Positions 3,701 to 64,000 of a stretch of 64,000 bases of DNA are shown here, in pieces. Position numbers and translations under genes: made by a program. The stretch is from Patiria pectinifera (Eukaryota; Echinodermata; Asteroidea; Valvatida; Asterinidae): the NCBI GenBank assembly GCA_029964075.1, contig CM057147.1, positions 22,465,513 to 22,529,512 of the forward strand. The letters run 5' to 3'. How positions within the stretch are numbered: position 1 is the first letter of the stretch; every line of letters begins with the position of its first letter. A model generated the notes under the pieces. The model was given only the letters and a program-made list of their open reading frames with translations, made no database searches and was not told the DNA's origin.

Positions 3701-6700
3701 ATTTTTGCAGCCAACTCAAGTCCTTATGCTTTGTTGCATCTTGTTGCATTTAGCAGGGTAACTGCTCATAGTGCCAAGGTGATACAAGAGTATCCGTTCT
3801 TGTTGTTTGTTGCATTTAGCAGGGTAACTGCTTGGTGCTAAGGTTGGTGTGTAAGGGATTCACAGCACAATGCAACAGAATCCACTGTTGCAGTTTGTTG
3901 CATTTAGCTGGGTTCTCATTTGAGGTAAGTTGGATATTGTTGCATTTAGCAGGGTACCTGAAGAAGACCCGATGGGTTTAGAGTTTTTAAACACATGGGC
4001 TCTGTGCACAAACGAGAGGATGTTTTTTAACCACTTCATTCTGAACATGCAAACATAAAACCATGGCGTCTTCACGTGAGCATCAGACCTCGTCAGCAAT
4101 GTGTTTGAATGTCCCTCTGAGTGGTCTCCCCCAGCTCTCCCTTTGTAAACCGTTGAGGGGGTACTTGCGCACAGATCCCATATGCCTCATGATATTTAGC
4201 ATCTGGAAGTGAACATTGTTTCTCATTGTATAAATTCTTCCTCATCGTCTTGTGCAGGCATCAGCTGAGGGACGACAGAGCAGAAAGCTTTGTGAACTGT
4301 ATCAAACAAAACCTGACCAAATCAACACAGATGGTAAGCCATTTATTTTATTAAGGTTATTTCTTTTCTTCTTTAATGAGTAGTATATGATCAGCTTAAC
4401 CCTCACCTCACCTAAAGCTACAAAATACTACTGAGTAGTAACCTGTAGTATGCATTTCTTTCCATACAAGTGTGCACAACACATGTACAGTCGAACACCT
4501 TTAAGTCCTTTGGACTTTACAAATTACCTTGTTATGACAGGTACCTTGTATTAGCAGTAACAGAAAACAAAGAAAAACAAAGACTTGGGACCTAAAGTTT
4601 TGCTTGTTATAAGCAGGACCTTGTATTAACAGTGCACTTCTCATCAGGGTTCGACTGTAGTATTCTGTGGTATTTGGTCCTTGACTCCCAAAGAGCGTTA
4701 GGGTTAAAGTTGTGTTCCCGTGCTACTTTCAAGTTTTATCCCAAAATATTGTTCCAAGGACTCTGGCTCAGGTCCTTGAGATTATTGCTATCCAAGGGTA
4801 CTCATTGTCCCAAGTCCTCGGATAGGATAACAAGATCACACCGATTCTGTTTTATATTATAGCGGTGGTGAAAGCTTTTGATAAAGTCCACCATTCATTA
4901 CTCATTAAAACCTTGAGTCAATCTTCTTGGACAGAAAGGATATTAGGCCAAAAACAAAGCTGCATTGAAAACAAACGTTGGTAATAGACCTTTATCATGC
5001 TGCCACCATTTCAGTCATGTTCCGTGTATCCAATAACAGTACTGATTGATAATGTTTTTGTGCAAGAAGGAACCAGACTATTTTTCCTTCCAGCCTCGCT
5101 TTGGTTACGTTGATTTGAATGGGAAAAAATCAAGATGGCTGCAACATGATAATGGTCTATTGGATCAAACAAGGAGATCTCTGGGTCTATCAACATCACG
5201 AGGAAAATAAATGTTACTGAAATTGAAATATTCAATGGAAATTGATTTTTTGTTTGTGGTCAGTTGGTGTGCATCTTGCCCACCAATCGTAAGGATCGCT
5301 ACGACGCCATCAAGAAGTACTGCTGCCTGGAGGCTCCCGTGCCCAGCCAGTGCATCCTGGCCCGTACCCTCAACAAGAAGCAGACCATCATGTCGGTGGC
5401 CACCAAGATTGCCATGCAGATCAACTGCAAGATGGGTGGCGAGCTGTGGGCGGTGGACATCCCGGTAAGTGGTCAAATGTGGCTTACTGCATATGCATAT
5501 GCACTCTAATCAGGAATGTAAGGCCTCCTGCATTTGAAAACACAAGTCTCAAAACGTCACTTTTTTCAAACTATTTTACCCCAATTATTTTTTATTATGT
5601 AATATTTTGTATTACAGCCTCCTTCGCCATTTTTGAGTTGCAGATTTTAAAATTAATGCCATATGTGTGTGCACTTTCCTTGAAACAAATTCATGCAAAC
5701 ATGTCAGAACCCAGTTTATCCGTGTTTCCTGACAAGCTCTCAATTATGGGAAACAATCCATGCAAAAGACTTGGTTCATGAGTATTTATTTGGAATTCAT
5801 AAATACCTTAGACAGTTTACGCATTCCTATTGGTCGAGAACCTGTCAAGTGGCCGGTCTTAAACGGATGATAAAGACCGGCCACCCACCGATCTTAAACA
5901 GAGTGTTATAATACCTCGCAAACACACATTTATTCCCTTATTATTGAGGCTTATATTTAATTGTTGTCTTCAGCCCAAGAAAATGATGGTCATCGGGATT
6001 GACTCCTACCATGACTCCTCCACTAGAGGGCGCTCTGTCGGTGGATTTGTTGCAACACTGAACGATAACCTCACCAGGTAAATGCTTTCGTGTTCGCTTT
6101 TATTCCGTCTTCTCCAAAAAATATGGCCCCGATGTCCCAATTACAGTCCATGTTCGTGTTATGAGGGCATCTTGTCATTCATGCAGTGAACAGTATCCTG
6201 CAAAATCCTCCAACTGCCTCCAAGTGAAAATGGCATACAGCCTCTATCGGGCAAAATCCTCCGTTTTTTCTTGACTCTGGTCCTTGGAGGGGTGACCACT
6301 GCCTCAATCCTGCAAAATCCTCAAGCAGAGACTGTCAATATCTTGAGGCAGAGCCAGTGACATCCTGGAGCAGTGCGGAGGATTCCAAGTATGATCTTGG
6401 CCTAAATTTATGCACGGCTAAGCATAAACAACGCAAGACTTTGATACAGTGCATCCTCCAAAATCAGCCACACATTTTTGCCACACATGATGCAATCAAG
6501 CTACACGAGACGTTTGTCGACCCTGGTCAATTTTTTTTTTAACGGATTTGAAAAGAGCATAATCTCAGCATTACTGCTGAGAAAACTGCATGCTAATACC
6601 ATCTTTAGTTCAAAAATTATGGAAGTCGGAACACCAAGAGATGTGATGAAGTGATGTGATAAAGTGGCCCTATTTTGGCCTGTATCTCCAGATAAAAACT

Positions 6701-8662
6701 CCCAACAAACGACTCATTTAGCTTGATCGCATCACACATTGAGACTCAATCCTGCAAAATCTTCCATTTTAGAAAATGAGCATTTTGGAAAGATTTGGGA
6801 AGGTTGGGGTTAATGATGTGTTTCCTTTGTGTTATGGCTGTGCAGATACTACTCCCGCTGCACGTTCCAACACACGGGTCAGGAGCTGATCGACGGTCTA
6901 AAGGTCTGCATGCAGGGTGAGTATCACTGGGTCTTTGTCACTGTCTGTCTGTATGTCTGGCTGTCTGATTGGTACCCTAGGGGTACACTAGGGTACCACT
7001 TAACCGAAGCATTGCTCTGCAGAAAGAAAAAATATCATATGGGCCATCAAAATGTGGTGTTGGGCCAAAAAAAAATAATAATCGGTCTCTGGTCAGACCG
7101 AAGTTCCGGGATTGATGGGGGGACGCATTTTTTTTTTTTTTTTGGGTGGCTTTTTTTCTTTCTTTTTTTCAAACTTGAATTGTACAGACAAGGTGGGTAC
7201 TATTTTGCTTTTTGTGTCCTCATTATACATTGGTGTCCTCCATAATTTGCCTTGGTGCCCTTTATCATTTGCCTTGGTGCAATTTCCCCATTCCTTGGTG
7301 CTCCTTGGTACAAAAATTTGAGGAGCTGCGGCAATGGAGGGCGCTGTTGTAGCTTCAGTGTTTATTTGAAAAAAAAAAGGTTGACGCGCATGATTAAAAT
7401 CGACGCGCACGCTGACCAGAGACCCGAGTAATTTTTTTTTTTGGCCTTATGTTAACAGTTTTATTTTGACACTTTAATGTTAAATCTTTATCGTTGTGGT
7501 TCGGGAAACTGAAATCATTTATTTTTAAAGTGAGTTCTTAAACCTCAGTTTTACATGGTTTACGGTAGGCTAGATCATTTGCAGCTATCCCAAAAAGTGA
7601 CTGAAAAATTCAGTGAAATCAGTTGATATAATGATTAAAATGAACCTAGATCAATTTATTTTGCCCAAAAATATGATGTTTATAGAAAAAAAACGATTCA
7701 AATCTGTGATTTAAAAAAAAAAAAAAAGTTGACTTAAATCTCAAGTTCAATTTAAATCAACGTGATTTAAATCGGCCAACCTTGCCTGTAAACTACCCAT
7801 ACGTTTAAAAAGTGCACTGTTAGTTTTGGGCCTGAGGGAAGGTCTCGGATTTGCCAGTCAGTCGGATGGGAATGCCACTGATTTTTGCCTGATGAGACTG
7901 TTAAAGGTATAGTCCATCATTTGTAATTTGTGCATTTTGTTTGTTGGAAGCAACAAAAGTGCTCAATATCTGAACAAAGATGCTGAACAACCAATCTGAC
8001 AAATTTTCAGCTCAGCTTTAGCTGCATTTTTTGAGAAAAACAACATTCTAGGATCTCGATTTCAAATCAAAAGTTGCTGAATCATGTTTTGAATTGGGCC
8101 TGAATCCAGCATCCGAGACACGTTCTCACTGAGCTGATTGCAGCTACGCGATGTCACGCACTGATCCGACGAATTATAGCAACTGGGTGTGCGTCGTGCC
8201 AATGCTTGCGCACTCTTTACCGAATAACAAAACAAACTACTAATTTGAATTTCCTAGGGTGCTTCTTAAGACGCACCGTTGGAAAGGCCTTCTTTTGTTG
8301 ATTTCTTCAAAATGACAGCTTGCCAGAAAGAATAATTTCACAGGGAGTTTAGTCCCCTTACTATCTTTCAACCAAGTATGTTTTTCAACAATAATTACGC
8401 CAGTTACTCTTTGGATGGCTGCAAATGATGGACTTTGGCTTGAAGCATTTTTGCATCTGTTCTATCTTTATCTCATCTCTGGCTCTCTTGACTCTTTCTG
8501 TTCAACAGCTGCCCTCCGCAAGTACGCCGAGATCAACAAGACCCTGCCAGACCGGGTCATCATCTACCGTGACGGTGTGGGAGACGGCCAGCTGCCTGCC
8601 GTGGTGGAGCACGAACTGCCTCAGATCATTGACACCTTCAAGACGCTGGGCACCAACTGGAA
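761..8662 (+). CDS. PIWI-clade Argonaute, internal part (5' and 3' ends missing)
   Basis: Eight exons with GT-AG borders and matching phases: 761-939, 1768-1879, 3153-3343, 4258-4333, 5264-5464, 5974-6077, 6846-6916, 8509-8662. They encode about 362 residues running from the linker after PAZ ([14 protein letters not shown]) through MID ([23 protein letters not shown]) into the PIWI RNase H fold. Two catalytic aspartates of the slicer site are visible: [11 protein letters not shown] (fragment residue D263) and [11 protein letters not shown] (D333). YRDGVGDGQ is typical of PIWI rather than AGO proteins. The family binds piRNAs and silences transposons in the germline. The N-domain and PAZ lie before this window. 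The last roughly 100 residues, including the catalytic His and the C-terminal end, are not found: the exon at 8662 stops in phase 2 just before an assembly gap. It resembles PIWIL1/PIWIL2, but I cannot assign the paralogue. Confidence 0.93.
975..1246. mobile_element. Palindromic MITE-like element in PIWI intron
   Basis: The left arm (about 983-1040: AAATGCC, TTTTTCGCTTGTACTCCCGCCCTG, GACGCTGGTCAGGGCTGA) reappears inverted at about 1184-1246 (CAGCCCTTACCAGCGCCCTG, GGGCGGGGGTACGAGCG, AAATGCC). The roughly 145-bp middle has no coding potential. The structure fits a non-autonomous DNA transposon. I could not identify a target-site duplication. Confidence 0.7.
1512..1709. mobile_element. MITE with 53-bp terminal inverted repeats carrying a histone-stem-loop-like motif
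   Basis: Bases 1512-1564 (starting CTAAGACAAGATAAG) are repeated inverted at 1657-1709 (ending CTTATCTTGTCTTAG) with only a few mismatches. Between the arms is a second fold around GGGACTCAACG/CGTTGAGTCCC. Positions 1569-1588 read GTGGCTCTGAAAAGAACTGG, close to the reverse complement of the histone 3' stem-loop found at 30832-30847. A related copy lies at about 42000-42130. The open frames over this region are in the repeat. Confidence 0.8.
2040..2570. repeat. Intronic repeat, copy 2
   Basis: Diverged second copy of the 1-600 repeat in the next large PIWI intron, same orientation. The contained palindrome CTGGTTCCCTGACC ... GGTCAAGGAACCA suggests that it is itself an inverted-repeat element. 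Confidence 0.65.
3424..3715. repeat. 70-bp minisatellite in PIWI intron (about 4 copies)
   Basis: The phrase CAGCAGTAACCCTAC recurs at 3497, 3567 and 3637, so the unit is 70 bp. Each unit contains AATTCAACAGAAAGCAACAA and GTTGTTGCA. Degenerate GTTGCATTTAGCAGGGTAAC pieces continue to about 3960. Open frames in this interval are repeat translation. Confidence 0.85.
4981..5164. mobile_element. Short inverted-repeat element (MITE-like) in PIWI intron
   Basis: AATAGACCTTTATCATG at about 4983 is inverted at about 5145 as CATGATAATGGTCTATT, with extra pairing inside (GCTGCCACC / GGCTGCAAC). It ends about 100 bp before the exon at 5264. Confidence 0.6.
5820..5900. repeat. Inverted repeat around GGCCGGTCTT / AAGACCGGCC
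   Basis: GGCCGGTCTTAAAC and AAAGACCGGCC face each other about 10 bp apart, giving a stable hairpin in the PIWI intron just before the exon at 5974. Its family is unknown. Confidence 0.5.
6180..6813. mobile_element. CAATCCTGCAAAATCC repeat, copy 1 (interrupted)
   Basis: Copy of a dispersed roughly 420-bp family also present at 15240-15639, 16105-16524 and 54900-55316. Landmarks are ATCCTGCAAAATCC, GGTGACCACTGCCT, GACTGTCAATAT, GAGGCAGAGCCAGTGACATCC and the end GGGTTAA (TTAA at 6810-6813). About 240 bp between 6497 and 6738 does not match the other copies, so this copy looks disrupted by an insertion. Confidence 0.75.
7062..7446. mobile_element. GGGCC-A(n) terminal-inverted-repeat element
   Basis: GGGCCAAAAAAAAATAATAA followed by GGTCTCTGGTCAG at the left end is inverted at the right end (CTGACCAGAGACC, then a long T run and GGCC at 7443-7446). 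The same kind of end occurs at 32473-33345 and 53556-53816. No coding potential was seen inside. Confidence 0.7.
7901..8443. mobile_element. TTAA-type element, TATAGTCCATCATTTG family, copy 1
   Basis: TTAAAGGTATAGTCCATCAT at the left and GCAAATGATGGACTTTGGCT at the right form decayed inverted ends. The body matches 32551-33051 almost end to end (GTGCATTTTGTTTG, GAAGCAACA, CCGTTGGAAA, CACAGGGAGTTTAGT). The right end sits 66 bp before the PIWI exon at 8509. Confidence 0.75.
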
Positions 8663-8887: not shown

Positions 8888-9387
8888 NNNNNNNNNNNNN
8901 NNNNNNNNNNNNNNNNNNNNNNNNNNNNNNNNNNNNNNNNNNNNNNNNNNNNNNNNNNNNNNNNNNNNNNNNNNNNNNNNNNNNNNNNNNNNNNNNNNNN
9001 NNNNNNNNNNNNNNNNNNNNNNNNNNNNNNNNNNNNNNNNNNNNNNNNNNNNNNNNNNNNNNNNNNNNNNNNNNNNNNNNNNNNNNNNNNNNNNNNNNNN
9101 NNNNNNNNNNNNNNNNNNNNNNNNNNNNNNNNNNNNNNNNNNNNNNNNNNNNNNNNNNNNNNNNNNNNNNNNNNNNNNNNNNNNNNNNNNNNNNNNNNNN
9201 NNNNNNNNNNNNNNNNNNNNNNNNNNNNNNNNNNNNNNNNNNNNNNNNNNNNNNNNNNNNNNNNNNNNNNNNNNNNNNNNNNNNNNNNNNNNNNNNNNNN
9301 NNNNNNNNNNNNNNNNNNNNNNNNNNNNNNNNNNNNNNNNNNNNNNNNNNNNNNNNNNNNNNNNNNNNNNNNNNNNNNNNNNNNNNN
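8888..9387. other. Assembly gap of exactly 500 N
   Basis: An exact 500-base N run is normally a placeholder for a gap of unknown size. It lies directly downstream of the last visible PIWI exon, so the missing 3' exons may be inside it. Confidence 0.99.
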
Positions 9388-14090: not shown

Positions 14091-17000
14091 CTATAATAAC
14101 TCTTGGCTCTTTTTGACAGTTCTGCGCACATTGCGTTTGAATGCACCTTGGTAGTCGTCCCTCCACTCTTTCTGTTAAGGGCAAAAAAAGCAACTTACTA
14201 AAGTGAAAAAAAGGATGAAAATTCATCCCTAGTACACATGCATTACTTCTGATAAAATTTGTTTTGAGAAAAGGAGTTTTTTTTGTAATGATTTAACTGG
14301 TTTTTGTTGGTCTTAAGCCTGACCTGATGTCTTATGATATTGAGGGCCACATGGGAGAGAATTTGCCCAATGGAGGTAACAGATTACACCCTATGGGCAA
14401 TTCAAAAAACGGCTGATCAAAAGTGGAAAATCTACGACATCTTCAGAACTACAAGTATCGCAACCTCAAATGTGGTATCAAATAAAAGGGGACAACAAGA
14501 CTTTTCATTCGAGTGCCTGTGAGATGGAATATGGTCAATCGTATTTTTGGGGCTAAAATTATGGATTTTAGGTGGTCATTTTGGCATCTTGTTTTCACAT
14601 GTAAATACAAGTGTTATTGTTAGTTTTTTGGCACAGAAAAGGTTCATATTCTATGCCAATAGAATTTTTTTGTTAGATTAATATTAAGTTCGTTTATGTT
14701 TTAAACTGTAACAGACACCTGATGCTCATGCTTAGATGCTGCGGTTTTGTTCATATTAAAAAAAAAGTCTGTCTTGCGTACTTTACCATATACATGCACG
14801 AAGCCAGTGCACGTACAAGGTGTGGCTTGTCCACAGTGCTCTCAAAAGTGGTAAAAAATAGCGCCCTCTCTTGTTTGCGCATGGAATCCATAATGGCCCC
14901 TGCTCTCAAATCCTCCCCCACAGTGGCCTCTCAAGCCCCTCCCATCAAACAGAAAACCCACATGTGATTCTCTTACCCCTGCGTCTACATTTGCTGGAGA
15001 TTCATCGTTTGGGCTAGACAGCATGGATATAACACTAATGAGGATGGATTCGATGCTGTGTACAGGCCGCCAGCGCTCTGAGGCTTCCTCATATCCCCAC
15101 TTGTCATCACCCGGCTCATGGAGAATCGAAATGCACACATCGCCATTCTTATCAACTGTCAAACGAAATTTAAAAATTTAATCACGTTTAACATGTCATC
15201 AGTTAGCTTCAGAAATTTAAGAAAATGACTTGTCTTTCATCCTAACTCACTAGGTATTTTTGCTAGGATGCAACCTCAATCCTGCAAAATCCACCAACTG
15301 CTGCCATGTCAAAATTGCATACAGCCTCAATCCTGCAAATTCCTCTGTTATTTCTTGAATGTAGTCCTGGTGGGGGTGAACACTGCCTCAATCCTGTAAA
15401 ATCCTTCAGCAATCACTGTCAATACGTTGAGGCAGAGCCAGGGACGACATCCTGGCATAATGCAGAGGATTTCAAGTATAATGTATGAGCGGCTGAGCAA
15501 AAACAACACAAAGTCCCGCCCAAGACCTTGACACAGTGCATCCTCCAAAATAAGCCACACATTTTTGCCAGATAACCTCAATCCTTCAAAATCATCCATT
15601 TTGCAAAAAAAAAGATATTAGAGGATTTGGGAAGGTTAATAGTGAAAAATGACTTTCCTTAGAATTACGTGAAAAACTGATTTTATTTGTATAAATATGA
15701 TTCCAAACCAACCTATGAAAGATAAAAACATCAAAGTGAACTGTTCAGCGCAATTTTTTCGAAAAAAAATAGACCAGAAAAGAAAGATAAAAACTTTTTA
15801 AAAGTTCAGTTTTCCTCTGCAGTTATGATCTTGAATAGCTTCAAATCCTCAAAACAGGGATGAAAAAGAAATAACTTTCTGTCACTACCCAAATATCAAA
15901 GCTTGTATTTGAGATACAGTTCACTTACTGTTTGGATGCCACATTTCTGAGACAAACCTCATCTTTGGAGGACTGTTAGGGTAGTTCTGAGGGAAAAGCA
16001 ACTCGGCCTTGAAGAAGCCACCCTCACTGCAAACAAAACAACAACAATAATTCAAAGGTTTTATAACTCTTTTGAAGTTCAGACTGGATAGTACTTTTTT
16101 ATTTTTAACCCTAACTCCCTAGGCCTTTTTGCTAGGATGTAGCCTCAATCCTGCAAAATCCTCCAATTGGCCTCATGGAAAAATAGTATAAAGCCTCAAT
16201 CCTGCAAATTCCTCCATTATTTCTTGAATATGGTCCGTGGAGGGTTGACCACTGCCTGAATCCTGCAAATTCCTGCAGCAGTGACTGTCAATATGTTGAG
16301 GCTTGGCCAGTGACATCCTGGAGCAGTACAGAGGATTTCAAGCATAATCCAGGCCTATTTTTATGCATGGCTGAGCAAAAAGAAAACACAAGGTCTGGCC
16401 TAAGACCTTGACAAAGTGCATCCTACGAAATCAGTAACGCACTTTTGCCATGTAATCTCAATCCTCCAAATTCCTCCACTTTGGCAAAGAGGATTTTGAA
16501 GGGGTTCAGGGCGGTTAGGGTTAATCAAATGGTTCAGTGACTCACAAGTAGGTGTCTGGGGGACCGTAGATGATCACCTCCCATTTGAAGAGGTCATCAT
16601 CTTCACTGAGTCCCGCTGAAAAGCCTTGAGTCCCGTCTTTGCTTTCCATCTCTGAAAAAATGGCAATCAATGGCAAGTTACAGATAAATCAAACAACTCG
16701 CCACTTCTTTTTTTTTAAAATTAGGCCCTGTTAAAAAAAAGCACTTAATGAGCACATATATTACAGGTACATTTTTCCTTTCTAATGCTCTCGTGTGTTT
16801 TGGTCCTATTCAATATGTTTAGATATTTAGATTTATTTATTTTCACACAAATCGCCGTCCTGATGATTTGAAAATCACAGGCGTGTGGAAAAAGGCACAC
16901 CTAGATTTTTCCAGGTGTGTGTAGATTTGTTTAGGTGTGCGATGGTGTGGTGGTGTGATCGCACGCCTCAAATCAGAAGGACTGCAATCTAACCCCGGGG

Positions 17001-22310: not shown

Positions 22311-22539
22311 TGTCCCTATGAGGCGCCATGTGTAAATAAATTATTTAACAAAATTATTTATATATAATTCATTATTTATTATATAATTCAGTTTCCCGGA
22401 CAATTATATGTAAATAATTGTTTGGCAGTTTGCATTATATGTAAATAAATTTATTTGCCACTTCATTATTTATATATAATTTTGTTTGCAACCTAATTAT
22501 TTACATATAATTTTGGGCAAACTAGAATTATTTATATAT

Positions 22540-23005
22540 AATTTATTTGCAACCTAATTATATATATATAATTTTTGCACACTTTTTTTATTTATATATA
22601 ATTTATTTGCAAACTTATTATTTATATATAATTTTTGCACACTTTTTTTATTTATATATAATTTATTTGCAAACTTATTATTTATATATAATTTTTGCAC
22701 ACTTTTTTTATTTATATATAATTTATTTGCAACCTAATTATATATATATAATTTTTGCACACTTTTTTATTTATATATAATTTATTTGCAAACTTATTAT
22801 TTATATATAATTTTTGCACACTTTTATTTATATATAATTTATTTGCAAACCTATTATTTATATATAATTTTATGCACACTTTTCTTATTTATATATAATT
22901 TATTTGCAAACTTATTATTTATATATGATTTTGCACACTTTTTTTATTTATATATAATTTATTTGAAAACTTATTATTTATATATAATTTTTGCACCCTT
23001 TAATT
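22540..23005. repeat. 60-bp AT-rich tandem array, left arm
   Basis: The unit alternates TTATTTATATATAATTT with TTGCACACTTTTTT and TTTGCAAAC, period 60 bp. The mirrored array is at 26765-27240. The open frames here are only repeat translation. Confidence 0.9.
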
Positions 23006-23757
23006 ATTTATTATATAATGCATTATTTATTATATAATGCATTATTTATTATATAATGCATTATTTATTATATAATGCATTATTTATTATATAATGCATT
23101 ATTTATTATATAATGCATTATTTATTATATAATTCATTATTTATTATATAATGCATTATGTATTAAATAATTCATTATTTATTATATAATTCATTATTTA
23201 TTATATAATTCATTATTTATTATATAATTCATTATTTATTATATAATTCATTATTTATTAAATAATTCATTATTTATTATATAATGCATTATTTATTATA
23301 TAATGCATTATTTATTATATAATGCATTATTTATTATATAATGCATTATTTATTATATAATGCATTATTTATTAAATAATTCATTATTTATTATATAATT
23401 CATTATTTATTATATAATTCATTATTTATTATATAATGCATTATTTATTATATAATGCATTATTTATTATATAATGCATTATTTATTAAATAATTCATTA
23501 TTTATTATATAATTCATTATTTATTATATAATTCATTATTTATTAAATAATTCATTATTTATTATATAATGCATTATTTATTATATAATGCATTATTTAT
23601 TATATAATGCATTATTTATTATATAATGCATTATTTATTAAATAATTCATTATTTATTATATAATTCATTATTTATTATATAATTCATTATTTATTATAT
23701 AATTCATTATTTATTATATAATTCATTATTTATTATATAATTCATTATTTATTATGT
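23005..23757. repeat. 19-bp AT-rich tandem array, left arm
   Basis: About 39 copies of ATTATTTATTATATAATGC and close variants (GCATT/TCATT, TATATAA/TAAATAA). Each unit is itself nearly palindromic. Confidence 0.93.
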
Positions 23758-24419
23758 AATTGTGCGCCCGAAGCGAACGAGGCTATGATTTATAAATAAT
23801 GGTTTTCAGCAAACCAGGGAACCAGACTACAGCAAAACCATTATATATTATATAATGGTTTTGTGAGCTAAATAATGAAACTCGCATGCAAATTAACTTC
23901 ACTAGGACACGCCTATGTTTTAAATATTCATATCACATAGCGCACCAAAACACCGCACTTGCTATAAAAAACACGCAGTATTGTGTATTTTGGGTATTGT
24001 GGGTCTGAATTTTTCTAATTTGCGCCCCGAAAGTATTGGAAATGACTCTCAAATGCTGTAAACTAGCGTATTTCAGGTAAACGATTCTTAAAAATTACGG
24101 AGAAATTAGCTATGCACAACACTCGCGCTAGCCAGCTACGATGGCCATCATGATCTATCCCGCAGTGCTGTCATTGTTAACGCTGATATACTGTACATTT
24201 ACATGTACATGTAAGCGCGCCTGAGCTGACACTGCGTGCACCGTGGAGGTGTAGCGGGTATCGGTAACGAATTGGCTGCGCGCGGCAGGAAGTTTCGGAA
24301 AACAAGCTGCTGCAAGTACAAGCGGTACAATCAGTACGCCCCGAAAATAAACAATAAATACAAATGAATACATCAAAACGGAAAAGGTAAACCACGGAAA
24401 ATACATAATTACACATAAT

Positions 24420-24545
24420 TAGTTGACTCGGTCCGAGTTGCTTTCGAGTCAACTCGACGGTCCCAAATCAACTCGGTCCCAGGTCAACTCGGTCCCAACT
24501 CGGTCCCAGCTCAGCTCGGTCCCAGGTCAACTCGGTCCTATGTCA
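24420..24545. repeat. ACTCGGTCCCA minisatellite, left arm (mirror 25198-25330)
   Basis: Irregular tandem of CAACTCGGTCCCA with GGT/AGT spacers, about six copies, next to GAGTTGCTTTCGAGTC. A related but distinct motif, CCAACTCGGACCCA, forms the last 75 bp of this window. Confidence 0.75.
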
Positions 24546-25987
24546 ACTTGATTGGGAGAAATTGATCTAGCAAGGAACCTTGGACAAAATTCAAATTGTG
24601 CCATAATAGGGGCTGTACCTTGTTAGGGTACATCATTAATAAACCGTTAAAGTGGTTACGTCATACACCGCTAAGGTCATGCCTTACCGAGGTCACGCGT
24701 TCCACACCTATCTGGCCTTACGTAGCTTAAACATGGTGCCCACTCGTTACTTTTTTTTTATCTGTTGAAAATGATTTTTAAAAAAGCCATCAGTAGTATG
24801 GTGCCCACAAAATGATAGCAGATTGTTACAAATGCCGTGATTTTTTTTATCATTTTCAGTGATGGATTGATGCGCCGTGCTATATAGCTATGTAAGGCCA
24901 TGAATACAATCTGCCGTCATTTTGTGGGCACTATGCTTTAACTAGGTATGACATTGTTAAGTAACCGATGTCTTTTGTTACCATTTTTAATGGATAAAAA
25001 AATAAGTAACAAGTGGGCACCATTAAAGCTACGTAAGGCCAGGTATGTGTGGAACGTGTGACCTCGGTAAGGCATGACCTTAGCGGTGTGTGACGTAACC
25101 ACTTTAACGGTTTATTAATGATGTACCCTAACAAGGCACAGCCCCTATTATGGCACAATTTGAATTTTGTCCAAGGTTCCTTGCTAGATCAATTTCTCCC
25201 AATCAAGTTGACATAGGACCGAGTTGACCTGGGACCGAGCTGAGCTGGGACCGAGTTGGGACCGAGTTGACCTGGGACCGAGTTGATTTGGGACCGTCGA
25301 GTTGACTCGAAAGCAACTCGGACCGAGTCAACTAATTATGTGTAATTATGTATTTTCCGTGGTTTACCTTTTCCGTTTTGATGTATTCATTTGTATTTAT
25401 TGTTTATTTTCGGGGCGTACTGATTGTACCGCTTGTACTTGCAGCAGCTTGTTTTCCGAAACTTCCTGCCGCGCGCAGCCAATTCGTTACCGATACCCGC
25501 TACACCTCCACGGTGCACGCAGTGTCAGCTCAGGCGCGCTTACATGTACATGTAAATGTACAGTATATCAGCGTTAACAATGACAGCACTGCGGATAGAT
25601 CATGATGGCCATCGTAGCTGGCTAGCGCGAGTGTTGTGCATAGCTAATTTCTCCGTAATTTTTAAGAATCGTTTACCTGAAATACGCTAGTTTACAGCAT
25701 TTGAGAGTCATTTCCAATACTTTCGGGGCGCAAATTAGAAAAATTCAGACCCACAATACCCAAAATACACAATACTGCGTGTTTTTATAGCAAGTGCGTG
25801 TTTTGGTGCGCTATGTGATATGAATATTTAAAACATAGGCGTGTCCTAGAGAAGTGAAATTGCGTGCGAGTTTTATTATATAGCTCACAAAACCATTATA
25901 TAATATATAATGGTTTTGCTGTAGTCTGGTTCCCTGGTTTGCTGAAAACCATTATTTATAAATCATAGCCTCGTTCGCTTAAGCACA

Positions 25988-26764
25988 ATTACATAATAAA
26001 TAATGAATTATATAATAAATAATGAATTATTTAATAAATAATGCATTATATAATAAATAATGCATTATATAATAAATAATGCATTATATAATAAATAATG
26101 CATTATATAATAAATAATGAATTATTTAATAAATAATGAATTATATAATAAATAATGAATTATATAATAAATAATGAATTATTTAATAAATAATGCATTA
26201 TATAATAAATAATGCATTATATAATAAACAATGCATTATATAATAAACAATGAATTATTTAATAAATAATGAATTATATAATAAATAATGAATTATATAA
26301 TAAATAATGAATTATATAATAAATAATGAATTATATAATAAATAATGAATTATTTAATAAATAATGCATTATATAATAAATAATGCATTATATAATAAAT
26401 AATGCATTATATAATAAATAATGCATTATATAATAAATAATGCATTATATAATAAATAATGCATTATATAATAAATAATGAATTATTTAATAAATAATGA
26501 ATTATATAATAAATAATGAATTATATAATAAATAATGAATTATATAATAAATAATGAATTATTTAATAAATAATGAATTATATAATAAATAATGAATTAT
26601 ATAATAAATAATGCATTATATAATAAATAATGCATTATATAATAAATAATGCACGATATAATAAATAATGCATTATATAATAAATAATGCATTATATAAT
26701 AAATAATGCATTATATAATAAATAATGCATGATATAATAAATAATGCATTATATAATAAATAAT
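25988..26764. repeat. 19-bp AT-rich tandem array, right arm
   Basis: Reverse-complement partner of the left-arm array (unit GCATTATATAATAAATAAT). The order of GCATT and AATTC variants differs somewhat from the left arm, and the length differs by about 25 bp, so the arms have changed independently. Confidence 0.9.
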
Positions 26765-27240
26765 TAAAGGGTGCAAAAATTATATATAAATAATAAGTTT
26801 GCAAATAAATTATATATAAATAAAAGTGTGCAAAAATTATATATAAATAATAAGTTTGCAAATAAATTATATATAAATAAAAAAAGTGTGCAAAAATTAT
26901 ATATAAATAATAGGTTTGCAAATAAATTATATATAAATAAAAAAAGTGTGCAAAAATTATATATAAATAATAAGTTTGCAAATAAATTATATATAAATAA
27001 AAAAGTGTGCAAAAATTATATATATATAATTAGGTTGCAAATAAATTATATATAAATAAAAAAGTGTGCAAAAATTTTATATAAATAATAAGTTTGCAAA
27101 TAAATTATATATAAATAAAAAAGTGTGCAAAAATTATATATAAATAATAAGTTTGCAAATAAATTATATATAAATAAAAAAAAGTGTGCAAAAATTATAT
27201 ATATATAATTAGGTTGCAAATAAATTATATATAAATAATT
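26765..27240. repeat. 60-bp AT-rich tandem array, right arm
   Basis: Mirror of 22540-23005 with GTGTGCAAAAATTATATATA and GTTTGCAAATAAATTATATA half-units. Confidence 0.9.
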
Positions 27241-27455
27241 CTAGTTTGCCCAAAATTATATGTAAATAATTAGGTTGCAAACAAAATTATATATAAATAA
27301 TGAAGTGGCAAATAAATTTATTTACATATAATGCAAACTGCCAAACAATTATTTACATATAATTGTCCGGGAAACTGAATTATATAATAAATAATGAATT
27401 ATATATAAATAATTTTGTTAAATAATTTATTTACACATGGCGCCTCATATGTCCC

Positions 27456-30806: not shown

Positions 30807-30821
30807 CCAATCTCTTTTTTG
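30807..30821 (-). promoter_or_regulatory. Histone downstream element (H2A)
   Basis: CAAAAAAGAGATTGG on the minus strand, 10 bp past the stem-loop. It is the purine-rich U7 snRNA target and is identical to the element after H2B. Confidence 0.9.
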
Positions 30822-30831
30822 ATATTGTGGT

Positions 30832-30847
30832 GGCTCTGAAAAGAGCC
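30832..30847 (-). terminator. Histone 3' stem-loop (H2A)
   Basis: On the minus strand GGCTCTTTTCAGAGCC, the consensus 16-nt histone mRNA stem-loop (6-bp stem, 4-nt loop). It is bound by SLBP, and processing occurs just downstream. Confidence 0.97.
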
Positions 30848-30873
30848 GGTTTGTTGTAGCTTGATCAAGCTGT

Positions 30874-31251
30874 TTATTTGGCAGCCTTGGCCGACTTCTT
30901 GGGCAGAAGAACGGCCTGGATGTTGGGCAGCACACCTCCCTGGGCGATGGTAACACCGCTGAGGAGCTTGTTCAACTCTTCGTCGTTGCGGATGGCCAAC
31001 TGCAAGTGACGGGGGTTGATTCTTGTCTTCTTGTTGTCGCGGGCTGCGTTGCCGGCCAACTCGAGGATCTCAGCGGCCAAGTACTCCATGACGGCGGCCA
31101 GGTAGACCGGGGCTCCGGCTCCAACACGCTCGGCATAGTTGCCCTTGCGCAAGAAACGGTGAACACGGCCCACGGGGAACTGCAGACCAGCCCTGGCAGA
31201 TCGGCTCTTGGCCTTAGCGCGAGCCTTTCCTCCCTTACCACGTCCAGACAT
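30874..31251 (-). CDS. H2A: Histone H2A (replication-dependent)
   Basis: Intronless 125-aa H2[21 protein letters not shown] at the N-terminus, the histone-fold signature [20 protein letters not shown], the acidic-patch region ([22 protein letters not shown]) and the C-terminal [11 protein letters not shown]. The length and tail match canonical H2A, not H2A.Z or H2A.X (no SQ[E/D] tail motif). It pairs with H2B in the nucleosome core. It is head-to-head with H2B, 362 bp apart. A TATA box (TATAAAA on the minus strand, 31317-31323) precedes it, and the 3' end has the histone stem-loop and downstream element, so expression should be coupled to S phase. Confidence 0.98.
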
Positions 31252-31613
31252 GATGATTCAGATTTTCTTCGGGAAATTTCAAAGAAACTAAAACTTAACA
31301 CAGGTCGCGTCTCAGTTTTTATACCCTTTGATGGGATCGCAAACAAACCAATGAAATTACTCCATCTGCTTCCGACCGCCCATTTCGGGAATTAGTTGTT
31401 CATTCAACGTCCGCATTATTCCGCAGGAGGGCACTATTTAGTGTCGTGTGCAACAAGTAGCCAATCGGTACGTGCTATTCATTAGCGGGAAATTCAGGCG
31501 CGGTGCACTCGATCTGTACTGGATCCAAATTTGCATATCTGATGGGATAAAATCAACGGGATTTCATTCCCAGGCATATTCCATTTCTTGCAATTTGCTG
31601 AAATCGAAAAATC
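31252..31613. promoter_or_regulatory. Bidirectional H2A-H2B promoter
   Basis: It contains TATAAAA for H2A (minus, 31317-31323), CCAAT at 31348-31352 and 31461-31465, and the octamer ATTTGCAT at 31529-31536, which is the element typical of H2B promoters (Oct-1 site). A weak ATAAAA at 31547-31552 could serve H2B. Confidence 0.8.
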
Positions 31614-31982
31614 ATGCCACCCAAGCCAAGCGGAAAGGGACAGAAGAAGGCCGGTAAGGCCAAGGGTGCCCCAAGCACCAACAAGAAGAGGAAGCGCAAG
31701 AGAAAGGAGAGCTATGGCATCTACATCTACAAGGTGATGAAGCAGGTGCACCCCGACACCGGCATCTCAAGCAAGGCCATGAGCATCATGAACAGCTTCG
31801 TCAATGACATCTTCGAGCGTATTGCCGCCGAGGCTTCCCGCCTGGCCCACTACAACAAGAAGTCCACCATCACCAGCCGTGAGGTGCAGACCGCTGTCCG
31901 TCTCCTCCTGCCCGGTGAGCTGGCCAAGCACGCCGTCAGCGAAGGCACCAAGGCCGTCACCAAGTACACCACCTCCAAATAG
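31614..31982 (+). CDS. H2B: Histone H2B (replication-dependent)
   Basis: Intronless 122-aa H2B. The basic N-terminal tail [20 protein letters not shown] is followed by a Lys/Arg run, then [39 protein letters not shown], the [20 protein letters not shown] block and the C-terminal [17 protein letters not shown] with the ubiquitinated lysine. The tail resembles echinoderm somatic H2B and not the long sperm forms with SPKK repeats. It is divergent from H2A and shares its promoter. Confidence 0.98.
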
Positions 31983-32011
31983 ACGGTGTACAGAAAACCA
32001 TCAAACCAACC

Positions 32012-32027
32012 GGCTCTTTTCAGAGCC
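32012..32027 (+). terminator. Histone 3' stem-loop (H2B)
   Basis: GGCTCTTTTCAGAGCC, identical to the H2A stem-loop, 29 bp after the stop codon. Confidence 0.97.
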
Positions 32028-32037
32028 ACCAAAATTT

Positions 32038-32052
32038 CAAAAAAGAGATTGG
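32038..32052 (+). promoter_or_regulatory. Histone downstream element (H2B)
   Basis: CAAAAAAGAGATTGG, 10 bp after the stem-loop; U7 snRNA binding element. Confidence 0.9.
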
Positions 32053-32472: not shown

Positions 32473-33345
32473 GGCCAAAAAAAAAGTCTCCGGTTTCTGG
32501 TATGGAGCTTGCCCAAAAAGTGGTGCGGCGACGCGGCTTTTTTTTTTTTTTTAAAGCTATAGTCCATCATTTGTAATTAGTGCATTTTGTTCGTTTGAAG
32601 CAACAGAAGTGTTCAAAATCTAATGAAGGATACTGAGCAACTAACCTGATTAAGCCCTCAGCTGTACATTCCGAGAAAAGCAGATCAGCATTCTAAGATC
32701 TCAGTTTCAACTGAATCATGTTTTGAATTGTTTTGAATTGCAGCTATACGCGACGTCGCGCACTGATCCGACCAATTATAACAACCGCGTGCGCGTATGC
32801 GTCGTTCCAAGACTTGTGCGCGCTGCGCTGAATAAAAAACAACTACTAATTTAAATTTTCCTACGGTGCTTCTTAAGAATCACCGTTGGAAATGCATTCT
32901 TTCGTTGATTACTTCAAAATGATAGCTTCCCAGAAAGAATAATTTCACAGGGAGTTTAGTTCCCTTACTATCTTTCAACCAAGTTTGTTTTTCAACAGTA
33001 ATTACGCCAGTTACTTTTCGGATGGATGCAAATGATGGACTATAGCTTTAACCTGGTTTGTTTTGCTTCAAATGTCGGCCGCTGATGACTGCAAATATGT
33101 GCCCGACTAAACTTAGTGGAAATATATGGGAGTCCAGAGAGGCCACATAAAGCTTATTCACGACCATAACCCAATCTAAAAACACGGTACAATTGTGCAG
33201 CAGCAGGATTCCAGTCAAACCAGTGAGTTTGGCGGTTTTGAGGCATCATCTTTCATTGAAAAAAACACCCTTTTTCTATTTTGCCGACGCGCATGGCTAC
33301 GGCGACGCGCGCGCATACCAGAAACCGGAGACTTTTTTTTGGGCC
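32473..33345. mobile_element. GGCC-A(n) terminal-inverted-repeat element with another element nested inside
   Basis: GGCCAAAAAAAAAGTCTCCG with GTTTCTGGTA at the left is inverted at the right (TACCAGAAACCGGAGAC, T run, GGGCC at 33341-33345). The TTAA element 32551-33051 sits inside it, so the outer element is the older insertion. Confidence 0.8.
32551..33051. mobile_element. TTAA-type element, TATAGTCCATCATTTG family, copy 2
   Basis: Intact inverted ends: TTAAAGCTATAGTCCATCAT at the left and ATGATGGACTATAGCTTTAA at the right, with TTAA on both sides. It is 501 bp, non-coding and homologous to 7901-8443. The TTAA target fits piggyBac/Kolobok-type mobilisation. Confidence 0.85.
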
Positions 33346-35438: not shown

Positions 35439-38400
35439 ATGAAACTCACATGGACCAGAGGTAGGCCTATATATTCTAGTTAAAATGTTCTTTTTCTCTG
35501 ACGAAACAAAATGTGATCTGATCTAACGACATGAGTCACGCCGACATATGTTTTTCACATTATTGTTCATTCATTATCTTTATTTTTTGAAATCATCATT
35601 ATTAATGACGTAATGTGGATTATTTGAATGTTGATTTTTTTTCCCCAGTTCTTCGTGGAAGATCAAGAATTCAAGATCTGTAAAATAAATATGAGTTCAT
35701 AACAAGTATGTACAATTCAATGCAATCAATGTACACTATTCATATTCCACAAACAAAATCATGTACATTGTGAGAAATCAAGAAATAAAACATGTATAAG
35801 AAAAGGGTAAAAAAGAGTACAATTACAATCAGGCGATTAATTAATTGCCATAATATTAATAAGCCTAAGCTTGTCAATGGCACGTACTGAAGGTATCTTT
35901 TAAACTTCAAAGTAATCAATGAAGACACATAAGGTAAACATAAGGCGTAATACATGTGCTCTCAATACAAAATGATAGTGCAGGTACGTACATATAAAAA
36001 ATATACAACGTAGGAAAAAAGTTAACTATTAATACCAAAAATCGGAATACATGAAAAACAAGGGCCAGATTTATTAAGAAAATCATAGTACACTGCTCAA
36101 GCTAAATCATATAAAGAAAGAAGACGGGGAGGAATACAGGGCGAGTTAAAACCGAAAAAAGGATGTGAAAGCCCAATTCATAAGCTTGATTTTTTAGTAG
36201 AAGAATAATTCATATCGCTCATGTACCTTTCCAGTTATGAACTTTTAAACACAAACAGTTTTATAGTTTTGTCCACGGATCACAACAAAGGTATGATATT
36301 TCAGCAAAAACAACTCACATATCATAAAACACATCTGAACGCTCTCATATATTATATGACATTAGGATTGGCACTGATCATAACATTTGTTTAAAAACCT
36401 TCTGCTTCCAAAACAACATCATTTATAATGTCAAAAGTTTAATGTCAAAAGTCTTGCCCTGCCTTCTACTTCGCTACCCCGGAGACCGTGGATTCTGATA
36501 TCGTTTTCGTGGTATGATATGGTTTCATTTTTACTGAAAAATAATATCACGTATACCTTAAATGTGATCCGCGGGATTATCTTAAAACGGTGTTCGTGTT
36601 CAACTGGAAAAGTATACATGAGTGATTTGAATGATTCTTGTATTAAAAGAAAGCTTATAAATTGGGCTTTCATATCCTAGATCTGGAAAGCACCATATGC
36701 TGCAGAACGTCTTTATAACGGGGGCATGGGCGTCGCCAGGATTTTTTCTAGAGGGGGGCAAAACCTATTTTTCCCAAAACAAATCCTGTATTCTCAACAT
36801 TTTTTCGATTTCTTGGTTTTAGAGGGGGGCAGGGACATTTTGACCCCCCCCCCAACTTATTAAATTTACGCCACTATGACTTCGCGCCTCTTTTTCTTTT
36901 CTTTTTTTTCTTCCATATTTTTGCTTTTCGGGGGCAGCTTCCCCCCCTCGCGACGCCCATGAACGGGGGCGCCATATTGAGTTTCCTTTTTTTTTTTTTA
37001 CTCAACCTGTAGAGGCATACATGTATTTCCGAAAACATGAGCTTGTACACAAAGCACACAACAGAAAACAAACGTCAGAACATTGAAGACAAGGACAAGA
37101 CAAACCCAGGACAGGACAAAATAACACACATTATAGAAAAATCAACATGGAAGAAGCAACATTCAAAACATGAATAGAAATCAGTTATGTCAAGCTATAA
37201 TGAAACCTACATCATTCAAACAAATCTAGATCAACTTGAAAATACAACATCGATCGCAGACTTTCAAAACTGGGGTGGTGATTTACGGCGTATATTATGG
37301 CGATTAATGGCTTTACAAAATACAAAATGACCACTTTTTGGAACGAAGCACGCGGAAATGGTGCGGTAAAATAAAATGTAACAAAAAAACATCTGGAGGG
37401 GTGCGAGAAGCAACATGCCCCGTGCCCAACCCTTACCCCTCCCTGTTACGTCAGTGTATATTACAAGAATAATTCAATCGTTCAATTTATAGAAACATGA
37501 GTTTTTGCCTCAATTTGTCTTGACAGATTCGGTGGTGTCCCTGAAGAAAGAGGACGAGGTAAGGCGTTTCTTTCAGTGATATTGGAAAACAAATTAATCT
37601 TTACAATTTTTTTTGTTCGAAATTATTGTCTAAATTAAAGTGTCAATTTCTTGTATATTTACTACATGGTGAGTATAAAAACATGAAACCAAATTTCGAG
37701 ACCATTGTTTTAGTGATATTCTGCATGTAGTGTTTTCAAAAACTAGGATATGAAAGCCCAAAGTTCATAAGCTTTGTTTTTGTACAAGAATCATTCAAAT
37801 CACCTAGGCCTATAATGTACTTTTCAAGTTACGGAATTTTAAACACAACCACCGTTTTAAAGTTCTGTCCACGGATCACACTTCTGCCAGCAAACGAAAA
37901 CAAATCACACACATCCCTTTGTGATTGTTTTCGTTTTGCTGAAGAACATTATACCTTTTTGTTATACATGTGGACAGAACTTTAAAACGGTGGTTGTGTT
38001 TAAAATTCCGTAACTTGAAAAGTACATGAGTGATTTGAATGATTCTTGTACTAAAAGAAAACCTGACATTTGGGTTTCGATTTTTTTGTACTCACCCTAT
38101 ATACACCCTGTATAGAAATGGATGCAGTTTCTTTTGGTAAACCCCCAAATATGCCCTATAAAAAAATATGTTTTTGTCCACTCGACGTTTTTCTCATCAC
38201 ACCAGATTTGAGAACCCCCCCCCCAAAAAAAAATCTTTAAAAAGGCTACCTTTGGAGATGTCTTTTCCCTATAACGTTTTGACCATTGATGACCGTGGCA
38301 ATCAAACATGACATCTCAAGATCAACGGAAGCCGGCTGTTCAATTTTGATTGGATTAGAAAGCGCGCCAAACCGATTACAGCGGCAGCAGCGAATTGCTA

Positions 38401-41400: not shown

Positions 41401-44400
41401 AAACAACCCAACTGTCTGTCACAAATACAATCAAATACCACAGATTTTTCAAAAGTGCAAAGGTACTGCAGTTGAAAAACCTGAAGTTATTTGGAGGGAG
41501 AATATGATGAAATCATGGAGGAATAAGAAGGAATTTCCTCCATGATGAAATGAAGAAATGTTCAGTTTCAGGGGGAAGAAAACTCCAGAAGGATGACATT
41601 CCCTGGAAAACTCATGGAACAGGTAAGGACTGACAATACAAACCTCATGTTGACCAGAAGCCTTGAAGGGAATCGAACCCGGGTCACACAGGTGGAAGGT
41701 GAGGAAAAATCACCTCGCTTCCCATTTTGCTGTCCATCTAGTCCATTCCTTAAATCTACCCTTTTCTCATTTGATTCCAGGCCTACTTGACCAGGGCAGA
41801 CGGTCATCGCGACGCATCCATCAGCTGGAAGGTGGACCTGACCGGCACCGGTCTGGTCGTGGACTCCATCCAAGCCCTGACCCTGAGCAGGACGCTACGA
41901 GGAGGAATGGTCACGTACGACATTGTCAGTCCTGACGCTGAGCAGGCTCCAGAACAATCAGGTTTGAACAAGCATGAGAATTGCGAAAGAATACCAATGA
42001 GGTTTGTGGTAGCACCATGTGGAGTAATTTCTTCTGAGAAGAAGTGTGGTTCTGGAAAGAACCGTTTGGATGTGAAACTCAGTGACGTTCCGATCTGTAT
42101 GCTCCAATCGTCTTCAGGAGAGAAAGATAACATTAAAGTAGCAATCCTAAAGAGTTGAAAGCAAGTCTATCACAAGTAAACCACAAGCCAAATTGAAAGT
42201 CAGTTCAAAAATAACAGGTGATGAACAATGAAAGGGAATGCCTTTGTCACAGTTGATTTGAGCAGGGATCCTTGATTTGAGTAGGTTGTCACTTGAAACT
42301 GGAGCATTGTGACCCGTGCTTCACTGGTCATTGACTTATGATTTCTTGATAATTGTGATTACTTGATTAACTCTGTTCCTACCTCCATGATTAACTGAAG
42401 TTGATTACCCTTCCGAACTATTTTTTTCTTTCTGAGTCCACAATATTCTTCTTAACAGAGAATATCAATAACAAATTAGTGTTACTGTTGTCAAAAAAGT
42501 TAACACATGGAGGTGGTATAATTGCAAAAAGAAAAAAGTGAAGAAAATCGGTTAGGTTTACTTAAAAATTGTTATGGATAATTTGGTTTAGAAATTGTTT
42601 GTTTACATCCATACTACTGAAAGTTTAGAAAAGGGTAATATTTCTAATGCAATCTCTACCGAAAATTACTTATCAAGTATCAAACACAAGAAGTATTTAT
42701 ACATCAAAGTTTTGAGAACTACTGAACTGTATACCTTCTCACTGATTGGTTTGTGGACTCTCTCGCTTCATGTCTGCCAGGATACATGGCCAACGGTTGG
42801 CAGAGCCTTTACCTCATTGCGTACCTCCGAGGGAGTCGAACCGAAGACACCTATGATCAGACTCAGCTGCTCTACCAGAGCAGCCTGGATGATCAGGACA
42901 ACTTTCCTCTGGATATCTTGATCACCCTCAAGGTAAGACGGGTGATTTTTATACAGGGTGAGTCAAAAAAAAGTAGAACCCATGTCGGGACTATTGTTTT
43001 AGTGAAGTTCTGCATGTAGCACTTTCACAATCTAGGATACGAAAGCCCAATTCATAAGCTTTCTTTTAGTACAAGAATCATTCAAATCACTTATGTACTT
43101 TTTAAGTTACTGAATTTTAAACACAACCACCGTTTTAAAGTGCTGTCCACAGATCAGAAAAAGGTGAGTGTTCTTTCAGGAAAAAAAAACCAATTCACAT
43201 AGGGATGTGTGTGAATTGTTTTCGTTTTGCTGAAAGAACACACACCTTTTTTGGATCCGTGGACAGAACTTTAAAACGGTGGTTGTGTTTAAAATTCAGT
43301 AACTTGAAAAGTACATGAGTGATTTGAAAGATTCGTAAAAAGAAAGCTAATGATTTGGGCCTTCATATCTTAGATTTTGAAAGTGCTATATGCAAAACTT
43401 CACTAATACAATAGTCCCGACATTTGGGTTTCCCTTTTTTTGACTCACCCTGTAGAAGGAATACAAGGCAAATTTCATTCAGAATTCCAGACAGCAGGGC
43501 TGGTGGATATTTCCAGTCCTGGATAGAGGCAAGGATTTGAGGCTCATGATCAGAGGAGTCAGGGGTGTGAATCCAGCCACTGCTTGTTGTGTCCTTGGGC
43601 AAGCCACATCACCCTGACTTGCCTCTCTCAAGACGCAAGTATAAATGGGTCCCAGCAGGTGGGTTAAAGCAGAGTAACCTGCTATGGACTGGCATCCCGT
43701 CCAATGGAAATGCAAATATCAGCCATTTTATGCCAGGGAAACTGGAGATTGGCACCGGCCTCATGAGCCATATTGAATCGAGAAGGACTTCGCTACTTTT
43801 CTATACAAAATTCAGTCCCACTAATTTGCTGGAGAATGCTAGCAAACAAATGTTGATAGTTTAATGGAGTATCGAGGTTGTAATTAGCTCAACCTTATAA
43901 AGTAGCTACCTTAAGGCCTTAAAAAAAATACATGTACTTTATCCCTCACAAAGTTGAAAATCAAAGTTAAAGGTGCAGAGACCAGAGATTCTACTGCACA
44001 AGCCTGACCCTCCAGTGACCAGACTGTGCTTTTTCAATGAAGGGAGTTCAAATATTTGACCATCCCATTTCCCTAAATTAGGTTTAGTTTTTTCCCAATA
44101 ATTTAACCGCAAAGAGGAAGCCCGTGAAATTTATTTGTAAAGATAAAAAAAACAAGTAAGGTGTGTTTACAAACACAAATGCCCCGCAACCGTGACTGTT
44201 TCCATGACATAACACATACTCTTTTAACATCAACTTACATGTACCTTGGTCACATGGAACATTCATTGACAGCATTAGTGTCTTCTGTAGGTTTTAAATG
44301 AATTAATCCCTAATCCCTATGATCTCAGAATAAATACAAGATTTCTATTGTTTTAGCCACTGTGACCTTGACCCTTGACCTTTCGACCCCTAATGTGATA

Positions 44401-63925: not shown

Positions 63926-64000
63926 GGTCAACTCGGACCCAAACCAAGTCAGACCCATGCCAAGTCGGACCCATGCCAACTCGGACCCACGCCAACTCGG
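63926..64000. repeat. CCAACTCGGACCCA minisatellite (runs off the window)
   Basis: TCAACTCGGACCCAAACC, AAGTCGGACCCATGCC, CAACTCGGACCCACGCC and so on, period about 16 bp, continuing past the end. It is similar to, but distinct from, the CAACTCGGTCCCA motif at 24420-24545. Confidence 0.8.

Follow-up and report, generated by a model that had tools for sequence, protein, structure and literature searches.

The 64,000-nucleotide stretch of the Patiria pectinifera genome analysed here (assembly GCA_029964075.1, contig CM057147.1, positions 22,465,513 to 22,529,512 of the forward strand; hereafter the window, whose own coordinates are used throughout) contains a palindromic element of 5,133 bp, located at 22317–27449 and inverted from end to end. 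This element is a non-autonomous foldback DNA transposon, i.e., a representative of a structural class that is already known. Its termini and the length of its target-site duplication (TSD) suggest that it probably belongs to IS3EU/GingerRoot. In our opinion, the element is best understood as a foldback transposon served in trans by an IS3EU/GingerRoot-type transposase, the arms of which became mirror images of each other through fold-back copying or conversion; this composite reading appears probable to us, with real room left for the alternatives weighed below. The element is well delimited and unusual in its completeness, but it is of a known structural kind.

Boundaries, anatomy, and coding capacity

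The sequence TATGAGGCGCCATGTG opens the element at 22317–22332 and recurs as an exact inverted copy at 27434–27449; no further exact copies of it are present within the 64-kb window. The inverted ends are identical over 273 bp. As the preliminary description of this DNA had stated, they stand between two copies of TGTCCC. This exact 6-bp TSD, for which the probability of a chance flank match is about 3e-4 (given the window composition, with the ends fixed beforehand), indicates that the element was inserted as a unit. The termini read TATGAG..CTCATA and are thus of the TA..TA type. The hexamer GGCGCC inside the ends was considered as an alternative 6-bp TSD and rejected, because the terminal repeat itself contains it as a palindromic stretch; no other boundary is equally clean.

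Each arm consists of a terminal domain, an AT-rich array of 30/60-bp units, about 40 units of 19 bp, a further non-coding segment of about 0.85 kb, and one half of a decayed central hairpin (Table 1). The terminal domain carries the motifs of both arrays, the 19-bp unit and the core of the 60-bp array, which are mirrored in the right arm at 27377 and 27398, respectively. The arrays could therefore have grown from terminal motifs.

No coding capacity was detected in the element. Fifteen stop-free frames of at least 55 amino acids overlap it, the longest of which (118 amino acids) is translated array; six frames, of 57–96 amino acids, lie outside the arrays. Four frames, three non-array and one array, were scanned and gave no Pfam match at E 0.01, while the remaining 11 comprise eight translated arrays, two frames that mirror scanned ones, and a single frame of 57 amino acids. 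The short frames and the lack of a Pfam match in the four that were scanned bear out the earlier remark that the element contains no transposase. Zero exact matches were obtained for the terminal repeat, the 19-bp array, a 26-mer from the unique arm, and the 16-bp minisatellite in viral and prokaryote collections, a result of little weight for an animal element. When the literature was searched for the end and array sequences as text, three papers matched, through the 11-base end strings alone; their titles point to other subjects.

Divergence between the arms

A global alignment of one half against the other is identical in 2,454 of 2,616 columns; mismatches occupy 65 positions, 5 inside the loop and 60 outside it. 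The longest exact inverted match measures 457 bp. In 50 first-order Markov simulations, this length never exceeded 24 bp when the element was simulated, or 18 bp for its non-array part. Expressed as substitutions per aligned bp between the arms, in left-arm coordinates, the divergence amounts to 0/131 in the terminal domain (22317–22447), 4/549 with 7 gap events in the 30/60-bp array (22448–23002), 8/141 in the outer non-array arm (23762–23905; six of the substitutions lie within 31 bp), and 0/708 with three single-base gaps at 23906–24616. It reaches 6/114 in the outer loop-proximal stem (24617–24730) and 12/94, with 7 gap events, in the inner one (24731–24826).

In Fisher tests, which like the placement tests were picked after the alignment had been viewed, the substitution-free 0/708 differs from 6/114 with p = 6e-6 and from 12/94 with p = 4e-12. 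Random placement reproduced the six-substitution cluster (31 bp, 23871–23901) in 0/200,000 trials, and a gap as long as the 716-bp substitution-free one observed among the 15 non-array substitutions (23766–24745) in 0/100,000. The arms had been described as complementary until a spacer of about 65 bp. If the arrays and a single 31-bp patch are set aside, complementarity is indeed near-perfect as far as about 24730/25024; beyond these points, however, the stem is decayed as far as 24826/24906, and the loop measures 79 nucleotides. Folding of the centre (24640–25110) as single-stranded DNA yields -168.6 kcal/mol, a value with z = -29 when compared with 100 shuffles.

A second palindromic element and its insert

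The window contains another near-spacerless palindrome, at 61601–63725, which without an insert at 61896–63114 is 897 bp long. Its ends are TAGCTCTACT, and its TSD, GTATTTCGG, is of 9 bp. Over the first 400 columns of their alignment, the arms of this outer element differ by 1 mismatch and by two gaps, of 14 bases and 1 base. In the last 47 aligned columns next to the loop, by contrast, 9 mismatches were counted manually from the alignment. No sequence shared with the 22317–27449 element was found at the similarity thresholds used, with the low-complexity filter on. Thus, the near-spacerless palindrome and the divergence beside the loop are common to two elements here.

The insert is itself an element. 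Its arms are about 345 bp long, its ends are TACTCCTAGAAC, and its TSD, CTTACCGCT, is of 9 bp; it differs from both palindromes in having a mostly non-palindromic centre. A 30-bp hairpin, TATGAGGCTCCGC-GTGA-GCGGAGCCTCATA, lies near each of its ends and resembles the ends of the 5,133-bp element in 13 of 16 bases. The matching sequence, TATGAGGCTCCGCGTG, occurs at 61908 and 63102; a shuffled window would be expected to contain 0.28 matches of this quality. These sites were considered as a second member of the family and rejected, as they lie inside an element with the ends TACTCCTAGAAC and a 9-bp TSD, and their own 6-bp flanks do not match.

History of the arms

Written as unit letters, the 19-bp arrays comprise 39 units on the left and 40 on the right. 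Aligned in mirror order, they show 11 gaps of whole units and 2 mismatched units, for a score of 47.8; none of 500 shuffles scored above 32.1, and reversing the order gave 12.8. Because the unit variants follow a mirror order, the array predates the last shared copy of the arms, and the later changes include gain or loss of whole units. The uneven divergence of the arms (0/708 against 6/114 and 12/94), in turn, makes a single uniform duplication unlikely. Two histories are possible: either one arm was copied by a process primed at an older central hairpin, or conversion from arm to arm occurred repeatedly and was poor beside the loop. The patch at 23871–23901 fits neither history directly, and may be due to conversion from another copy or to clustered mutation. 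In the scheme that we propose, the arms would have turned into mirror copies through fold-back copying at the old central hairpin, through later arm-to-arm conversion, or through both. After either process, the distal arms would be identical and the stem beside the loop would still be old; the 19-bp arrays would afterwards have drifted through gain and loss of whole units.

One origin put forward in the preliminary description, in which an ordinary element was recently duplicated by folding back, would in its simplest form be a single event with only mutations since. The lack of substitutions in the mid-arm and terminal domains and the unit order common to both 19-bp arrays are what such an event would leave. 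A single event fits less well with the uneven substitution density along the stem and with six substitutions gathered in one 31-bp patch, a cluster that random placement did not reproduce. The proposal survives if the centre already held an older hairpin at which copying was primed; as a single recent event, we regard it as unlikely, though not negligible.

It is very improbable that the palindrome is an artefact of assembly or sequencing. Long palindromes and AT-rich arrays are difficult to assemble, and the window does contain one run of 500 N (8888–9387), probably a scaffolding gap. Against this explanation, the palindrome ends exactly at TA..TA with a TSD, the flanks beyond the TSD differ, and 60 aligned non-loop positions distinguish the arms. 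Moreover, entire 19-bp units are present in one array and absent from the other, so that one arm was not assembled twice. The differing flanks, substitutions, and array units are unlike a doubled arm or a palindromic read with a missed adaptor.

Relation to known foldback elements

Foldback elements are described as lacking a transposase and as having inverted arms of composite build that include tandem arrays (PMC4079207, PMC3169594). The present element likewise has long inverted arms that are built of domains and contain internal tandem repeats, and it was inserted as a unit with a TSD. The idea of a specialised foldback family, also raised in the preliminary description, therefore agrees with the structure; as for a family, one copy is known here. 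Close parallels are Tetris of D. virilis and Tm1 of Meloidogyne. The arms of Tetris are also long and inverted and are made up of domains that contain tandem repeats, and its three complete copies are described as lacking conserved open reading frames; the repeat of its array shares 37 bp with the terminal domain (PMC4079207). Unlike the present element, Tetris has TSDs of 8–10 bp, arms of up to 1,735 bp, and a variable middle domain (PMC4079207). Tm1 similarly has composite long inverted arms, in which a motif of about 14 bp recurs redundantly, but its TSD is of 9 bp (PMC3169594). Galileo, of the P superfamily, shares the long, internally repetitive inverted repeats, and its tandem repeats hold transposase-binding sites (PMC3688188). 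It differs in having a P-type transposase with a THAP domain, whereas the present element has no transposase gene.

The preliminary description assumed that elements with long terminal inverted repeats usually keep a larger centre. This premise is weakened by the second near-spacerless element in the window and by published examples of the same arrangement. Thus, non-autonomous mariner-type transposons of Tribolium (TCAST4- and TCAST8-like) have long inverted repeats that are 92% and 86% similar and only 41 and 31 bp apart (PMC5844308). Long inverted repeats with hardly any spacer have therefore been published before. The Tribolium transposons differ from the element described here in being labelled mariner, and the cited passages describe no array-built arms for them (PMC5844308).

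Superfamily assignment

Complete IS3EU families have TA..TA termini and usually a 6-bp TSD, and GingerRoot has a 6-bp TSD and mostly TA..TA termini, according to the passages cited (PMC10045372). The present element has both the TA..TA ends and the 6-bp TSD, and in these respects resembles IS3EU/GingerRoot (PMC10045372, PMC12730594). It differs from them in the absence of a transposase and in having array-bearing arms of about 2.5 kb with almost no centre. If the assignment is correct, an integrase-like transposase of the IS3EU/GingerRoot type, supplied by another copy, would recognise the ends, and the array motifs that recur in the terminal domain would serve as additional binding sites, as in Galileo.

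Several points weigh against the reading of the element as an IS3EU/GingerRoot foldback with copied or converted arms. The case for the superfamily consists of two terminal bases and the length of the TSD, and TSDs of about 6 bp are also made by hAT6 and Dada transposons. In fungal IS3EU bearing TET, the ends are TAYGG..CCRTA and the terminal inverted repeats are longer than 30 bp (PMC12730594); the ends TATGA..TCATA match this pattern at 4 of 5 bases, the fifth being A, not G. It should be noted that the pattern is stated there for one fungal group and not as a superfamily-wide rule. The evidence comes from one copy of the element. As to the arms, the 8/141 substitutions at 23762–23905 lie beyond the centre, where a simple gradient from the centre outward does not predict them, and the 19-bp array (23003–23761), aligned base by base, shows 30/759 substitutions and one 19-bp gap.

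The main alternative is that the foldback element belongs to a different superfamily (Mutator/Phantom, P/Galileo-like, hAT6, mariner-like, or Dada) and that its TA ends and 6-bp TSD are coincidental. Foldback elements have been assigned to Mutator and P, and there is one mariner case with long repetitive ends (PMC4079207, PMC3169594). Both further long inverted-repeat elements of the window have 9-bp TSDs, and hAT6 fits by TSD length. On the other hand, the reported TSDs of Tetris and Tm1 would lead one to expect about 8–10 bp for a Mutator or P foldback, and the TSD here is of 6 bp; it is also exact, clean, and combined with TA..TA ends. We therefore consider the IS3EU/GingerRoot assignment preferable and coincidence the less likely explanation, to which we would give perhaps the same limited credence as to a single duplication.

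Two other candidates were rejected. Those Dada families whose termini can be defined are inserted in small RNA genes, and terminal inverted repeats are lacking in Dada-U6 and Dada-U1. The element has long exact terminal inverted repeats; in the window, Rfam at the gathering threshold gave histone 3′ stem-loops as its only matches, and ARAGORN gave no tRNA. Ginger1/2 transposons were excluded because they start with TGTNR and make TSDs of 4–5 bp (PMC2836005).

Among the matches listed for open-licence papers that combine IS3EU with foldback, palindrome, or long-repeat terms, a search that lay outside Repbase, there was no IS3EU foldback. The oyster satellites CgiSat35 and CgiSat47 are labelled DNA/IS3EU (PMC8268682), and TCAST10 of Tribolium, described as half hAT-like, half IS3EU-like, and sometimes present as inverted dimers, provides a loose parallel (PMC5844308). 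Thus, tandem or inverted repeats related to IS3EU have been met before.

Other features of the window

Two divergent histone frames lie at 30808–32052. The frame on the minus strand, recognised by eye, we take to be H2A-like. The plus-strand frame is H2B (Pfam, solved H2B chains), and each of the two is followed by a histone 3′ untranslated region stem-loop (Rfam). A PNGase PAW domain is also present in the window (Pfam). The histone pair and the PAW domain identify the window as animal nuclear DNA.

Several other repeats were observed. A minisatellite at the end of the window, CAAGTCGGACCCATGC (63929–64000), looks related to the 16-bp minisatellite CGGTCCCAGGTCAACT of the arms (24458–24548), the two having the stretch AGGTCAACTCGG(A/T)CCC in common. 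A diverged palindromic repeat family, self-inverted at about 72–86%, is found at 36160–36678, 37645–38079, and 42949–43457; one candidate end in this family begins with CAGGG and has TA flanks. Dispersed direct repeats of about 300–420 bp with 76–91% identity occur at 6195–6483, 15235–15607, 16104–16524, and 54900–55316, and a 145-bp unit is repeated in tandem at 44336–45070 (about 5 copies with 90% matches). Two direct duplications, each about 500 bp long, pair 1–504 with 2048–2545 (73% identity) and 7901–8444 with 32551–33051 (76%).

Table 1 Parts of the palindromic element and its flanking duplication, in window coordinates
Feature	Coordinates	Strand
Left TSD copy, TGTCCC	22311..22316	+
Whole element, 5,133 bp	22317..27449	.
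Left terminal domain: TA-terminal inverted repeat, 19-bp unit copy (22371), 60-bp-array core motif (22353)	22317..22447	+
Left 30/60-bp AT-rich tandem array	22448..23019	+
Left 19-bp tandem array, 39.9 copies	23003..23761	+
Left non-array arm, with 16-bp minisatellite at 24458–24548	23762..24616	+
Left loop-proximal stem, diverged from right side	24617..24826	+
Central loop, 79 nucleotides	24827..24905	.
Right loop-proximal stem	24906..25137	-
Right non-array arm	25138..25987	-
Right 19-bp tandem array, 40.9 copies	25988..26764	-
Right 30/60-bp tandem array	26748..27318	-
Right terminal domain	27319..27449	-
Right TSD copy, TGTCCC	27450..27455	+

Implications

A broader proposal, which we put forward tentatively and regard as possible but doubtful, is that the foldback architecture arose within the IS3EU/GingerRoot lineage via amplification of terminal motifs, and that copying dependent on the hairpin, from which the stem next to the loop is spared, has kept the arms identical in both near-spacerless palindromes of the window. 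If the superfamily assignment is correct, this would be a further evolution of the foldback shape, in a lineage with retroviral-integrase-like transposases, which would support a convergent origin of long repetitive inverted repeats in unrelated transposons. If hairpin-dependent copying is correct, the divergence along a palindrome would be a record of the repair process. The uneven divergence of the arms in two elements without detected similarity provides a handle on the formation and persistence of long palindromes in animal genomes.

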